Assembly: GCA_018713305.1 (NCBI GenBank)
Contig: DVFI01000099.1
Location: forward strand, 1 to 64,000
Source of the DNA: Candidatus Avichristensenella intestinipullorum
GTDB taxonomy: Bacteria > Bacillota > Clostridia > Christensenellales > Aristaeellaceae
Length of the DNA stretch: 64,000 nt
Direction of reading: 5' to 3'
Part shown: positions 1 through 45,325 of the stretch, piece after piece
How positions within the stretch are numbered: the first letter of the stretch is position 1
How the letters are laid out: every line of letters starts with the position of its first letter
The notes under the pieces: model-generated
What the model was told of the DNA's origin: nothing
The model's input: the letters and a program-made list of their open reading frames with translations, nothing else
The model's database searches: none
Position numbers and translations under genes: made by a program

Positions 1-41
1 CCGCCCCGTCCCGCCGCCCCAAGGCTGCGGGACAAAAAAAG

Positions 42-143
42 GGCCGTTGAAAAACCTGCGTTTTTCAACGGCCTCGGACCGTCGAAGAACCCCTTTGGGA
101 GGTTTGGAGGGCCGAAGCCCTCCAACTGCCATCCGAACCCGGC
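42..143 (-). repeat. Copy A of dispersed 3'-UTR element: TGGAGGGC-cgaa-GCCCTCCA stem-loop, conserved linker (minus strand TTCTTCGACGGTCCGAG) and 14-bp hairpin GGCCGTTGAAAAAC-N4-GTTTTTCAACGGCC followed by CTTTTTTT on the minus strand
   Basis: Direct reading; homologous to 45234..45325 and more weakly to 29500..29612; lies downstream (minus strand) of the CDS ending at 321. Confidence 0.7.
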
Positions 144-276
144 GACATGCGCGGCGGGTTCGGAAGCCTTGCGCAGCAAGGTTTCCCTGCACGTTTCCCC
201 GGCCGCGCCCCCAGGCGCAGGGGAAACGTGTCCTGGCGAAAAAGGCCGGCTGCGCCGACCTTTTTCGACAAGCTGG

Positions 277-308
277 GGCCGTTGAAAAACCTGCGTTTTT
301 CAACGGCC
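277..308. repeat. Second exact copy of the 32-bp hairpin GGCCGTTGAAAAACctgcGTTTTTCAACGGCC
   Basis: Identical to 42..73. Confidence 0.85.
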
Positions 309-320
309 CTTCGCGCGGCC

Positions 321-1403
321 TCAGCCGTTGGGATGCTCGGCCTCCGGCTCCGCCGTCACTTCCGGTTCCGCTGTCGCTTCCGGCGCTGCCGTTGCCTCCG
401 GCTCGGCCTGGTCCGGCTCCACCTGGATATCCAGCCCTTCCATCAGCGCCCGGAGCGTCTCAGGGCCGGCCACGCCGTCGTCCCGCAGCCCGTTATCGCG
501 CTGGAACGCCCGCAGCGCCGCGCGGGTTTTATTGCCGAAAATATGGTCCGCGGTATCGTCCAGATACCCGCGCACAATCAGCGCTTCCTGCATGGCGCGC
601 ACGTCCATGCCCGCCATGCCCCGCTGCAGAATGCGTTCAAACCCTTCGGGCATGGTTGCGTCCGGAGCGACATACGCAGGAATGTCCACGCCCAGCGCAG
701 CCAGCGCCTGGCGCGTCTGCTCGCCGACCATCCCGTCGCGCGTCAGCGACTGTGCCCGCTGAAAGCGCATGACCGCCGCGCGCGTCCTGGGGCCGTAAAT
801 GCCGTCTTCGCGTCCGACGTTATAGCCCAGGCCGGCCAGCCCCTGCTGCAGCGCCAGGACATCGTCGCCGCGCGTCCACAGCTTGAGCGTGCGGTATTCC
901 CCCTGTGCCGGCGCGGGCGCCTCCGTCGGTTCGGCGGGGGCTTCTGTCGGCTCTGCGGGCGCTTCTGTCGGCTCTGCGGGCGCTTCCGTCGGCTCCGCAG
1001 GGGCTTCCGTCGGCTCCGCGGGGGCTTCCGTCGGCTCCACCGGCGTATAGACAATCTGGAAGGCGATGCCGCCCTCTTCCTGCGGAGACTGCGCCTGCGC
1101 GCCGGTGAGCACGAAATCGTTCACGCCGGGCACGCATTCCACCGTAAACGCGCCTTCCTCCTCGTCCAGCGCGAGCGTCACCGTCTGCGGCGTATCCTGC
1201 CAGGTCCCCTCAAATCCCTGCCAGAGCGCGTAGCTCTCGCCCGGCACGCCCCCAAAGCCCACGGCATTGGTGGCGCGGTCCGTGGTTTCCGGATACGCAA
1301 TCAGCGAGAATTCCCGTTCTTCTTGCGCCACCGCCAGCCCCGACAGCGTCAGGCACAGCGCCAGCAAGAGCGCCAGGCAGCCGTACAACCGATAGTGTTT
1401 CAT
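321..1403 (-). CDS. Secreted peptidoglycan-binding (PG_binding_1 repeats) protein with (PTEAPAE)n linker
   Basis: Signal peptide MKHYRLYGCLALLLALCLTLSGLAVA; two LQ..L...GY....DG.YG..TRAAV..FQ modules. Confidence 0.8.
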   Translation of the reverse strand: MKHYRLYGCLALLLALCLTLSGLAVAQEEREFSLIAYPETTDRATNAVGFGGVPGESYALWQGFEGTWQDTPQTVTLALDEEEGAFTVECVPGVNDFVLTGAQAQSPQEEGGIAFQIVYTPVEPTEAPAEPTEAPAEPTEAPAEPTEAPAEPTEAPAEPTEAPAPAQGEYRTLKLWTRGDDVLALQQGLAGLGYNVGREDGIYGPRTRAAVMRFQRAQSLTRDGMVGEQTRQALAALGVDIPAYVAPDATMPEGFERILQRGMAGMDVRAMQEALIVRGYLDDTADHIFGNKTRAALRAFQRDNGLRDDGVAGPETLRALMEGLDIQVEPDQAEPEATAAPEATAEPEVTAEPEAEHPNG

Positions 1404-1434
1404 TCCCGTTTCCTCCGTCCTTTGCGTTCCTGCC

Positions 1435-2298
1435 TCAGGACTGACATATCCACCAGCTTGCGCCGTCGGTGGCCATATACACCGTTCCTTCGGCAGTGTA
1501 GTAATCGTCGATTGCGCGGTATTCCAACTGTCGGACCGTCTCGGCCACATAGTCGCGGCCATTTGTCACCACCGCGGCGAGCGGCCTGACCACATTTAGG
1601 AAATTGGGCACGCTGGGCGTGATGCCATGGTGGGCGACCTTGAAAACATCGGCACGCAGGTCCTCCGGCTCCAGCATTTCCAGCAGGCGGCGCTGCCCGA
1701 CCCCCGAAGCGTCCGCCATCAGCAGCAGCACGCGCTCCCCATACTTGACCTTGAGCACCAGCGAGCGCGCGTTGGCGCCATGGGTTTGGTCATCGTCCCG
1801 GTACACGAATACCCGCGCGTCGCCCAGCGCAAGGATATCGCCATGCCCCACGGTCACAAAGGCGGCGCCCGCTTCCTCCAGGAGCGGAAACAGCGGGTCA
1901 TAGGTGGACGGCGCGGCGTCGGGCCGATAGGGCGAAAGGAACACGGATACGCCATAGCCGTCGCGCAGCAGCCGGACTGCGCCGTCGATATGGTCCGCAT
2001 CGCCGTGGGTATTGAGCATCATATCCAGGCGCTCCAGCCCCTGCTCGGCCAGCAGCGCTTCCACGGCGCGCTCGCAGCCGGCTTCGCCCCCGTCTATGAG
2101 CAGCGTTTCCCCGCCGCACCGCAGCAGGAAGCCGTCGTTCCCCAGGCCCAGGTTGAGAAAGAACGCTTCAAACAGCGGCGTGCCCTCGTCAAAGGGACAC
2201 GCCGCGCTCGTATCAATCAGCGGTATTTCCGCGCGTGCGGCGCAGCCCGCCAGGCATATCCAGCATGCCAGCCACGCCAGCAGCAGCCCTCTGCGCAC
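1435..2298 (-). CDS. MBL-fold metallohydrolase lipoprotein (ComEC C-terminal-like)
   Basis: Lipobox-like CLAGC; THGDADHIDG motif; KVAHHG motif. Confidence 0.8.
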   Translation of the reverse strand: MRRGLLLAWLACWICLAGCAARAEIPLIDTSAACPFDEGTPLFEAFFLNLGLGNDGFLLRCGGETLLIDGGEAGCERAVEALLAEQGLERLDMMLNTHGDADHIDGAVRLLRDGYGVSVFLSPYRPDAAPSTYDPLFPLLEEAGAAFVTVGHGDILALGDARVFVYRDDDQTHGANARSLVLKVKYGERVLLLMADASGVGQRRLLEMLEPEDLRADVFKVAHHGITPSVPNFLNVVRPLAAVVTNGRDYVAETVRQLEYRAIDDYYTAEGTVYMATDGASWWICQS

Positions 2299-2300
2299 GA

Positions 2301-3581
2301 TTAACGCTTCGGCGGCCTGCGCAGATAGGCGGGCACGTCGCTGCCTGCGCCGCCGCGTTCCGGCATGGGTTCCGGCGCGGCCTGCGGCTCCAGATCGGGG
2401 CGCTGCGGCTGGGCGTATACGGGGCGTGCGGGCTGCACGGGCGGCTGCTGCCGGGTATTGACAAAGGCGGGGATTTCCGGCTCGTCCGGCCGGACGCGCG
2501 CGCTCTCCGTCTGGGCATGCCAGCCCGAAGAATAGCCGCCGTAGGAGGGCGTCCTGTCCGCCGTGGCGTACAGGCGTTCGCGCTCGCGCTCATAGGGCTT
2601 GCGCGGCGGCTCCTTGGGCGGGAAGGGGGTTTTCTCAAAGCCGGTGGCAATGACCGTAATGCGCACTTCGTCCTCGAGCGTCTCGTCGATGCCCGCGCCG
2701 AAGATGATGTTCGCTTCGTTGTCCGCGGCCTGGATAATCAGCTGCGCCGCCTCGTTGATGTCCACGATGGACATGTTCACGCCGCCCGTCACGTTCATCA
2801 GCACGGCGCGCGCGCCGTCGATGGAGGTTTCCAGCATGGGGCTGGAGATGGCGTTCTTGGCCGCCTCGACCATGCTGTTCTCGCCCTTGCCGACGCCGAT
2901 GCCCATATGGGCCATGCCGCCGGATTCCATGACGGTCTTTACGTCCGCAAAGTCCAGGTTGATAAGCGCCGGCACGGCAATCAGGTCGGAAATGCCCTGA
3001 ATGCCCTGTCGGAGCACGTCGTCGGCAATTTTGAAGGCTTCCATCATCGTGGTGCCCTTGGTCACCACCTGCAGCAGGCGGTCGTTGGGAATGACCACCA
3101 GGGTATCCACCCGCTGCATCAAATCCTGGATGCCGCCTTCGGCGTTTTTCATGCGCTGTTTGCCTTCAAAAAGGAAGGGCTTGGTGACGACGCCTATGGT
3201 CAGACATCCCAAATCGCGCGCCACTTCCGCCACGATGGGCGCGGCGCCCGTGCCCGTTCCGCCGCCCATGCCCGCCGTGACGAACACCAAATCCGCCCCT
3301 TTGAGCATCTGGGCAATTTCTTCGCGGCTTTCCTCGGCAGCCCGGCGGCCGATATCCGGGATTGCGCCGGCGCCCAGGCCCTTGGTCAGTTTATCGCCAA
3401 TCTGCAGGCGGTTGGGCGCGAGCGACATGGCCAGCGCCTGCTTGTCGGTGTTGACGGAAATAAATTCCACGCCGCGCAGGCCCTCTTCCACCATGCGGTT
3501 GACGGCGTTGCCGCCCGCGCCTCCACAGCCGACGACCTTAATGGAAGCGAAACTGTTCTGTTCAACCTCAAACTCCAGCAT
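2301..3581 (-). CDS. ftsZ: Cell division protein FtsZ
   Basis: [23 protein letters not shown] tubulin signature, C-terminal [12 protein letters not shown]. Confidence 0.97.
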
Positions 3582-3632
3582 TGTCATCCCCCTCAATTCC
3601 TGTATATCGGGCCTCCCGTTCGCCCGCGATGC

Positions 3633-28477: not shown

Positions 28478-28517
28478 TCCCCCGCGCCGGGCCGTGCGGC
28501 AGGCCGGGGGTTTTTTC
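28478..28517 (+). terminator. Probable intrinsic terminator of fhs
   Basis: CCCCGCGCC...GGCCGGGG followed by GTTTTTTC. Confidence 0.5.
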
Positions 28518-28568
28518 GGGGGCGCTGGCGAGGAAACCAAAGAGAACGGAACAGGGAGGACTGCGGGC

Positions 28569-29468
28569 ATGCGTGCGACTTCCGCTTCCCGGCGTATGCT
28601 GTATGGGGGGCTCATCCTGCTGGAGTGCCTGCTCTGGGGGTTGGGAAATCCGCTGATTAAAATCGGCGGCCAGGGCATCGCGCCCTTTTCGTCCATTGCG
28701 CTGCGCTTTTCGCTGGCTTTTCTGGCGTTTGTTCTGGTGTTTGGCCGGCGCGTATGGAGGGGACTGCGCGGCGTGCGCCCCGGGCCGTGCCTGGCGGTCT
28801 GCGTGTTCACCGCGCTGTCCTTCACGCTCAGCAGCCTGGCGCTGATGTACACGCAGGCCAATATCGCGGGCTTTCTGATGGGGGTTGCCGTGCTCTTTTC
28901 TCCCTTCCTGGACCCCATCATTCTGCGCACGCGCTTTCAGTGGAGGATTCTTCCGGTCATCGCCGTCGTCTGCGTGGGGATGTATCTGCTGTGCGGAGGC
29001 TCCGACGGGTTTGTCTTTGGGCTGGGAGAAATCCTGGCGCTCCTGTGCTCCCTGTGCTTTGCCATCATGCTGGCGCTGAGCGAAAAATACGTTTCGCAGG
29101 TAGACCCCATCGCGCTGTCCACGATTCAGTGCGGCGCGGCGGCCATCCTGTGCATCGCGTGCATGTTTCTCTTTGAAGGCGGCTTGGACCTGCAGGCGCT
29201 GTCGAACCGCAAAGCGCTGGGCGCGGTAGTCTATGTGGCGCTGGGCGGCACATGCGCGGCCTATGTGCTGCAAAACGTCGCCATGCACCACATATCGGCC
29301 ACGTTCGCCGCGCTGGCCTTTTGTACGGAGCCCGTGTTTACGGCGCTGTTCGCCTATCTGCTGCTCGGGGAAACGCTCAGCGCGCAGGGGTTCGTGGGCG
29401 CCGGCATTGTGCTGGCCGGCGTCATGGCGGCGTCGGTATGGCCGGCGGAGCGCAGCCGAAAGGCGTAA
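28569..29468 (+). CDS. DMT superfamily (EamA) transporter
   Basis: Two EamA repeats, 10 TM pattern, FALLAYLLLGE-like motif. Confidence 0.9.
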   Translation: MRATSASRRMLYGGLILLECLLWGLGNPLIKIGGQGIAPFSSIALRFSLAFLAFVLVFGRRVWRGLRGVRPGPCLAVCVFTALSFTLSSLALMYTQANIAGFLMGVAVLFSPFLDPIILRTRFQWRILPVIAVVCVGMYLLCGGSDGFVFGLGEILALLCSLCFAIMLALSEKYVSQVDPIALSTIQCGAAAILCIACMFLFEGGLDLQALSNRKALGAVVYVALGGTCAAYVLQNVAMHHISATFAALAFCTEPVFTALFAYLLLGETLSAQGFVGAGIVLAGVMAASVWPAERSRKA

Positions 29469-29499: not shown

Positions 29500-29612
29500 A
29501 AAAGCGGTCCGGGACGATGAAAGCGCGGAAGGGCTTTGGCCCTCTCGCGCTCTCCTATGGGTTTTTTGACAGCGTAAGAGCGCGGTGGGCAGACCGCGCT
29601 CTCATCTATTTT
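29500..29612 (+). repeat. Copy C (divergent) of the 3'-UTR element: GAAGGGCtttgGCCCTC, linker CCTATGGGTTTTTTGACAGCG, hairpin AGAGCGCGGT-N6-ACCGCGCTCT
   Basis: Alignment by eye to copies A and B; downstream of the EamA gene. Confidence 0.55.
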
Positions 29613-44463: not shown

Positions 44464-45222
44464 ATGAAGCGTCTCTTCGTGGTGTTCCTTTTGCTTTGCC
44501 TGACGCTTACCACATCGGCCCTTGCCGCCGGCAGCTATGTCCCCGGCGATTTTCGGGGCGCGACCGACGCACAGATTGCCACGAACGTGGCGGTGGTGGT
44601 GACGCGCAACGTCACGCTGCGCAGTCTGGCGTCCTACGACGGCCAACGCCTTGCCAGCATCCCCGGCGAAACGGTATTGGAGGTGCTCTCCCAGTCCAGC
44701 GACGGCCGCTGGCTGCAGGTCGCCTATTACAAAGACGGCACGCGCCTGACCGGCTGGGTCCTGACCGAATACGTCGTGCAGAATCCCATGACGTTGATTC
44801 TGCGCGCCGACAACGTGCCGGCCTACGCGGCGCCCTCCAGCCAGGCCAAGAAGGTCGGCTCGCTCCCCGCCTATACGCGCCTGACCGTTATCGGCGAGTG
44901 GGACGATTACTATGTGGTCAGCCTGCGCAACGCCGCGGCCTGCATCCGCAAGGACGCGCGCTACTGGACGGACTGGGACTTGCTGCACTATGAGCAGAGC
45001 GGCCAGCGCCTGACGCTGTACACGCTGGGCAGCACCGTCCTGCGCACCGGTCCCGGCACGGACTGGGCCAGCGCGGAGCGCGTGACGGCGGGCACGACGC
45101 TGGAAGCCCTTTCGGCGTATCAGGAAAACGGTTGGTACGTCGTGCGCTTCGGGGACGGCGACCTCGCCTATGTCAACGCCTCGGACGTACAGGTTGTCGG
45201 CGGCGACGGCGCCGTGGGCTGA
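44464..45222 (+). CDS. Secreted SH3-domain protein
   Basis: Signal peptide MKRLFVVFLLLCLTLTTSALA; three SH3b-like modules. Confidence 0.8.
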   Translation: MKRLFVVFLLLCLTLTTSALAAGSYVPGDFRGATDAQIATNVAVVVTRNVTLRSLASYDGQRLASIPGETVLEVLSQSSDGRWLQVAYYKDGTRLTGWVLTEYVVQNPMTLILRADNVPAYAAPSSQAKKVGSLPAYTRLTVIGEWDDYYVVSLRNAAACIRKDARYWTDWDLLHYEQSGQRLTLYTLGSTVLRTGPGTDWASAERVTAGTTLEALSAYQENGWYVVRFGDGDLAYVNASDVQVVGGDGAVG

Positions 45223-45233
45223 GCCGGCCTGCT

Positions 45234-45325
45234 GCCGGGTTCGGGTTGCATGTGGAGGGCTTCGGCCCTCCATGCTCCCCCATGAGTTTTTCGACGGTCT
45301 GGGCCCGCCATCGCGGGCTTTTTTT
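45234..45325 (+). repeat. Copy B of dispersed 3'-UTR element: GGAGGGCttcgGCCCTCC, linker CATGAGTTTTTCGACGGTCTGG, terminator
   Basis: Homologous to copy A (minus strand 143..42). Confidence 0.75.
45303..45325 (+). terminator. Intrinsic terminator
   Basis: GCCCGC-N4-GCGGGC followed by T7. Confidence 0.85.

Follow-up and report, generated by a model that had tools for sequence, protein, structure and literature searches.

The window, a 64,000-nucleotide stretch of DNA, comprises positions 1 to 64000 of contig C140 in a genome from a gut Clostridia lineage, 2.35 Mb assembled in 151 contigs. Downstream of three of its genes lie related noncoding sequences, each adjoined by a hairpin. The features are as follows.

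321..1562, minus strand: gene upstream of the complete copy, with peptidoglycan-binding domains (Pfam PF01471, PG_binding_1)
276..308: 33 bp, the proximal copy of a duplicated terminator stem-loop, flanked by the upstream gene on one side and the element on the other
74..275, minus strand: complete copy of about 202 bp, CAGCTTGTCGAAAAAGG...TTCTTCGACGGTCCGA, 95% identical to the genome consensus over 200 bp
130..166, minus strand: hairpin D, stem CCGAACCCG/CGGGTTCGG, cap CC-GCG-CATGT-CGC; the stem covaries between genera
41..73: distal copy of the 33-bp stem-loop, with the T-tract kept (CCTTTTTTT on the minus strand)
28494..29468, plus strand: gene upstream of the degenerate copy, EamA transporter (Pfam PF00892)
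about 29530..29572, plus strand: probable copy, degenerate and 5'-truncated, with stem GAAGGGCtttGGCCCTC and GGTTTTTTGACAG
29577..29602, plus strand: hairpin AGAGCGCGGT...ACCGCGCTCT, directly 3' of the degenerate copy
44464..45222, plus strand: gene upstream of the truncated copy, with bacterial SH3 domains (Pfam PF08239, SH3_3)
45234..45301, plus strand: 5'-truncated copy corresponding to unit positions 133 to 202 (3' arm of hairpin D, hairpins E and F, and right terminal repeat GAGTTTTTCGACGGTCTG)
45303..45325, plus strand: host terminator GCCCGC-CATC-GCGGGC followed by seven T, adjoining the truncated copy

The peptidoglycan-binding gene has in-frame 21-bp tandem repeats at 913 to 1038, near its 3' half, and is adjoined by ftsZ (Tubulin/FtsZ and FtsZ_C domains) at 2301 to 3596 on the minus strand.

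An earlier note, made from the letters of the window, had described three copies of a structured 3'-UTR element placed directly before terminator-like hairpins. All three sequences are present where it located them, and two of their components exceed the expectation from dinucleotide shuffles: the right-end motif occurs 7 times against 0.30 expected, and the GGAGGGCTTCGGCCCTCC stem 5 times against 0.16 expected. The copies at 45234 and at 143..42 are real, while that near 29500 is degenerate (BLAST E of 0.007 to 0.035 against the unit), so that its membership in the family is probable, not certain. A scan of the whole genome with the pattern GGYCYTCN{6,26}TTYTTYGACRG returned 20 matches, compared to none for the reversed-pattern control. 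Reading outwards from these 20 sites revealed that the window copies correspond to the 3' end, the right third, of a high-copy repeat unit of about 202 bp (CAG...CTG). The element extent given in the note thus captured the right-end part of a much longer unit, which runs from CAGCTTGTCGAMAAAGG to GTTTTTCGACGGTCTG and is bounded by terminal inverted repeats (CAGNYYGTCRAMAAA), namely, CAGCTTGTCGAMAAAGG and, inverted, CAGACCGTCGAAAAAC. A search with the whole unit matched 40 of 170 scored candidates, all 40 over more than 150 bp, and the exact core CCGCGCATGTCGC, a hairpin cap, occurs 48 times in the same genome. Many copies are truncated, and many contigs of the assembly end inside a copy. Short length, lack of coding sequence, many copies per genome, and terminal inverted repeats are all features of non-autonomous transposons of the MITE type, and the unit has each of them. 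The note had also remarked that the linker GTTTTTCGACGGTCTG is conserved while the adjoining terminator stems differ, and this observation is now accounted for: as the right terminal inverted repeat of the element, the linker stays the same from copy to copy, and the terminators vary since each of them is a hairpin of the host that the insertion has duplicated.

The duplication is evident at the complete copy, where the 33-bp sequence GGGCCGTTGAAAAACCTGCGTTTTTCAACGGCC is found at both 41 to 73 and 276 to 308, one on each side of the element; the earlier note had recorded this terminator hairpin but missed that it is present twice. Several copies are flanked in this way, with one terminator hairpin repeated to the left and right. 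The clear-cut comparison genomes were two relatives, G723 (MAG SIG362) and G014 (MAG RGIG6256), in which 25 of 32 copies had an exact shared flank stretch of at least 12 nt, compared to 0.2% of swapped-flank controls; in the window's group, the figure was 5 of 25 copies against the same 0.2%. Examples that stand immediately before CAG and again immediately after CTG are AAGCGCCCTCTGCTGAAAAGCAGAGGGCGCTT (L201), AAAGGGAACCGCCGGAGCGGTTCCCTTT (L139), and AAGGGAGACAGGCGGGTGCCTGTCTCCCTT (L232). Moreover, of the 32 G723/G014 copies, 28 have a stem of 7 bp or longer directly adjoining the element on the left and 25 on the right, compared to 4.75% of random positions. The duplicated stem-loops are about 15 to 43 bp long. 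A further relative, G026 (three contigs), carries an element of different sequence with the same habit of stem-loop duplication. These data show that the repeats have the target-site duplications of a MITE, here consisting of an entire stem-loop. The other copies in the window's group, which lack a clear duplication, are older or lie amid other repeats. Further repeat modules surround many of the copies in the flanks of L001 to L020 (e.g., L002, L007, and L009), among them GGAAGGGGCTTGCCGCCCCTTCCTGCATCCCCGCAGAAGTGTG and also GAAGCGGCTTGCAGCCGCTC beside CATGATAGC, and the resulting composite mosaics hide duplications in the window's genome. At one locus (L195, the L142 site), the duplicated terminator is not identical in its two copies, which show a G-C to A-T change affecting both sides of one pair and a single G-C to G-T change, as if the duplicated terminator had stayed under folding selection.

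Gene context was evaluated with gene calls from a codon model trained on the Pfam-verified genes of the window and then self-trained. In the G723/G014 group, 18 of the 24 copies with both neighbors called lie between convergent genes, and the unidirectional sites comprise 2 in sense and 3 antisense. The convergent class was also the largest in the window's genome (10 of 18 copies), followed by 6 sense and 1 antisense. The statement in the earlier note that the element is in sense with the preceding coding sequence holds for the three window copies (PG_binding_1 on the minus strand, SH3_3 and EamA on the plus strand) but is no general rule; terminator targeting together with chance orientation allows the arrangement in the window. 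This distribution bears on the alternative offered in that note, according to which the repeat is a host-beneficial structured RNA of 3' ends, acting in termination, stability, or processing, that selection has spread and maintained, its mobility being incidental. The unit would indeed be transcribed within 3' UTRs; however, the copies sit mostly between convergent genes and show no sense preference at the few unidirectional sites in G723/G014, many are truncated, and the stem-loop duplications show insertion.

A search for a candidate partner by way of the DDE domain PF13751 in related genomes led to G725 (Candidatus Ventricola). A transposase gene there has CAGACCATCGACAAAC at its left boundary and, at its right boundary, a sequence that ends in GTCGACGGTCTG. 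By NCBIfam, this transposase belongs to the IS1182 family (421 bits against a cutoff of 270), and the IS1182-family model NF033551, with the same cutoff, gave 421, 439, and 415 bits for three transposases; Pfam identified PF05598 (DUF772) and PF13751 (DDE_Tnp_1_6). Homologues were found in 42 of the 250 genomes of the family. The IS1182-family IS in related genomes have ends that match those of the MITE (CAGACCRTYRACAAA), namely, CAGACCRTYRACAAAS or CAGYCTGTCAAAAA; the repeat thus has its ends in common with an autonomous IS, as MITEs do. The earlier note had held that a match to a known IS would tell against its RNA reading, and such a relation is what the ends reveal. A stem-loop abuts nearly every IS1182-type IS end, with a shorter median stem in the controls, so that the partner IS has the palindromic targets reported for some IS1182 members. 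Among the six IS copies with both ends, three are flanked by exact stem-loop duplications (22 bp at L349, 31 bp at L351, and 25 bp at L364), one (L361) by an exact but less palindromic duplication of 20 bp, and two (L350 and L366) by different hairpins on the two sides. Furthermore, the end of contig C1 in the window's genome holds the final residues of such a transposase (FLTAAVQNMKRIARAFRFLF, at 75% identity) together with the terminal repeat CAGACCGCCGACAAAGG. This IS end lies directly after AAGCCTTGCGCAGCAAGGCTT, which is hairpin C of one repeat copy; the IS had inserted at a MITE's palindrome. Since no more of the transposase than these last residues is assembled there, the window's genome escaped the domain search. 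A complete IS1182 element is missing from that assembly, and the domain search found none in G014 or G723; multi-copy IS have possibly been lost from such assemblies. A search for a longer, open reading frame-carrying form in G026, by way of isolated half-elements, yielded only truncated remnants.

The same evidence weighs on two other routes of mobility, both of which we regard as highly improbable. One is transposition of a REP/RAYT- or PATE-like element by an HUH (Y1) transposase that uses single-stranded hairpins as its substrate. Such an origin would suit repeats that are hairpin-rich, intergenic, and high in copy number, and Y1 transposases do occur in one relative, G179; nonetheless, Y1_Tnp (PF01797) was not found in G000, G014, G026, G316, or G724 and only as broken pieces in G723, and the present repeats have terminal inverted repeats and target duplications, unlike PATEs and IS605-type elements (PMC3119063). 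G179 (two contigs) has eight Y1_Tnp matches, five of them very strong, and in this differs from the MITE-rich G000, G014, G026, G316, and G724. The other route is a retroelement, SINE-like or derived from a group IIC intron, that would spread by target-primed reverse transcription. Duplications of variable length, 5'-truncated copies, terminator targets, and RNA-like folding would all fit this route, but the inverted terminal repeats are held in common with a DDE-transposase IS, and no reverse transcriptase domain (PF00078) was found in the draft genomes G000, G014, G723, G724, and G726.

What we observed directly is the repeat unit with its ends and its stem-loop duplications, together with autonomous IS that have these ends and this habit, and the IS end in the window's genome. 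Given these, we consider it very likely, with a probability of roughly 0.88, that the repeats are MITEs with IS1182-type ends that target terminators and that a DDE transposase of the IS1182 family mobilizes them in trans. Weighing against this reading are the missing complete IS1182 element in the window's genome, G014, and G723, the low share of clear duplications in the window's group, and the two IS copies with unlike hairpins at their ends. The suggestion in the earlier note of a REP/MITE-like element targeting terminators was right in this respect. We infer the following course of events, including the cut positions. The transposase would recognize a palindrome by its shape and not its sequence, usually the bidirectional intrinsic terminator between two genes, and would attach the element by its 3' ends at both 5' feet of the stem-loop. 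Repair of the gaps would then leave the whole stem-loop on both sides. The upstream gene would retain its T-tract in the distal hairpin, and a convergent gene would retain the opposite tract in the proximal one, so that each flanking gene would keep a terminator after insertion. The transcript, in turn, would gain a structured 3' UTR of about 200 nt whose last nucleotides (GTTTTTCGACGGTCTG) abut the hairpin.

The IS1182 MITE model does not require the interior hairpins to be conserved, which is a further point against it. Their predicted order is A (from the left terminal repeat), B with an inner hairpin, C (CCTTGCTGCGCAAGG), D, E (GGAGGGC..GCCCTCC), and a short F, followed by the right terminal repeat. 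Hairpin D has a variable stem and the cap CC-GCR-CATGT-CGC. In a long form of about 303 bp, found in G723, G014, and G316, a branched insert of about 97 nt takes the place of the D cap; G026 has both short and long forms. Within long forms (L221, L230, L231, L232, and L236), a branched module of approximately GAGCGAAGCGA..CGAGGACAGCGCGAAGCGCTCCGCAG recurs, and it is also present in otherwise different repeats of several genera (L258 to L285, in G026, G731, and G743); it had no Rfam match. Between genera, the D stem is wholly different in sequence yet paired, with 93% of cells paired compared to 64% in shuffled alignments and 84 two-sided changes compared to 25 in shuffles. A phylum-wide search with a model of hairpin D gave hits in G702 and G407, which we treated as spurious, as their neighborhoods lack the cap. 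In one family, f10 (L166 to L182, in G117, G214, G103, and G207), B-D hairpin modules with the same cap lie directly after a stop codon and hairpin; no second, duplicated copy of the hairpin was seen at these modules, and they occupy the same gene neighborhoods in related species (L166/L177, L171/L176, and L180/L181).

We compared G-U with A-C intermediates in the stem changes. Within genomes, the counts were 6 against 17 and 7 against 12, and across genera they were 3 against 2, all small numbers from related copies; in neither setting was there an excess of G-U. Since upkeep as RNA would predict G-U to outnumber A-C, this favors stems that are DNA-level palindromes over stems kept as RNA. 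Neither the window, its relatives, nor the long forms matched Rfam at the gathering score, and relaxed thresholds gave nothing above it. For the 3'-end RNA proposed in the earlier note, the strong conserved structure, the covariation of hairpin D, and the f10 modules, which lie just after terminators at positions conserved between species, are points in its favor. Together with the insertion signature and the convergent sites, however, the lack of a sense-strand G-U excess and of an Rfam match leaves such an RNA unsupported as the cause of the pattern, and we judge it very unlikely. Alternatively, the interior stems might covary through DNA-level hairpin correction, that is, template switching within palindromes, in place of RNA selection, an account compatible with the IS1182 MITE explanation. 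As this account would have it, the stems consist almost wholly of Watson-Crick pairs, with few intermediates of either the G-T or the A-C kind; the account leaves the invariant cap across families and the conserved hairpin order unaccounted for, and we hold it to be possible but doubtful. Rather less probable is that the interior has a function of its own as a structured module. In this view, transposons that seek out terminators would have picked up a host- or transposase-binding structure, of RNA or DNA, and carried it along, so that many 3' ends came to bear the same signal. This tentative idea stems from the near-invariant cap, which is found on covarying stems within the mini-transposons of one family and also in f10, where no transposon is visible around it.

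If the IS1182 MITE reading is right, it points to a way of inserting into terminators that does not destroy them, as each flanking gene should keep a hairpin and T-tract, and such terminator-sparing insertion may explain the high copy numbers in small genomes. The repeats may also explain breaks in the draft assemblies of this lineage, many of whose mRNAs may carry a stereotyped structured 3' UTR. For annotation, a simple rule follows: where a 3'-UTR-like RNA motif is found, both flanks should be inspected for a duplicated hairpin.

Several known systems resemble these repeats. REP/BIME sequences with their RAYT are likewise intergenic palindromic repeats near gene 3' ends; REPs, however, are short, consist of a single palindrome, and go together with a Y1 transposase, an enzyme that our searches of the key carrier genomes did not find. 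The PATEs of Haloquadratum are also palindrome-bearing, noncoding mobile repeats of high copy number, but they derive from IS605-type elements (PMC3119063). The pneumococcal BOX, RUP, and SPRITE repeats are high-copy, noncoding, strongly folded, under about 200 bp, and enriched between convergent genes; the optional middle module of BOX (boxB) resembles our short and long forms, and SPRITE resembles a terminator; target duplication could not be established for SPRITE (PMC3049150). None of the three has been described as duplicating a terminator stem-loop, and we claim no sequence relation to them. The closest parallel in transposase family is IS1272/TnSha1, an IS1182-family element of staphylococci that targets stem-loops, often terminator hairpins, chooses them by shape with little sequence preference, and inserts in both orientations (PMC4923244, PMC5678879). 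IS1272 is autonomous, whereas the window's copies are noncoding and far more numerous. Furthermore, IS1272 deletes the stem-loop and makes no target duplication (PMC5678879, PMC4923244), while the MITE and IS copies here retain and duplicate it whole. Wan et al. drew whole stem-loop duplication as hypothetical pathway b for transposons attacking a cruciform (PMC5678879), and in the literature searched, this outcome is otherwise only a drawn possibility for the IS1182 family, of which the insertions described here are natural instances. The open papers searched, a set that leaves ISfinder and the main IS reviews outside, contain no description of whole-hairpin duplication or of such MITE swarms. 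Thus, the kind of element is known already, in that IS1182 members such as IS1272 target terminators; what marks this variant is the duplication of the whole stem-loop, the modular, hairpin-rich non-autonomous copies, and the scale.
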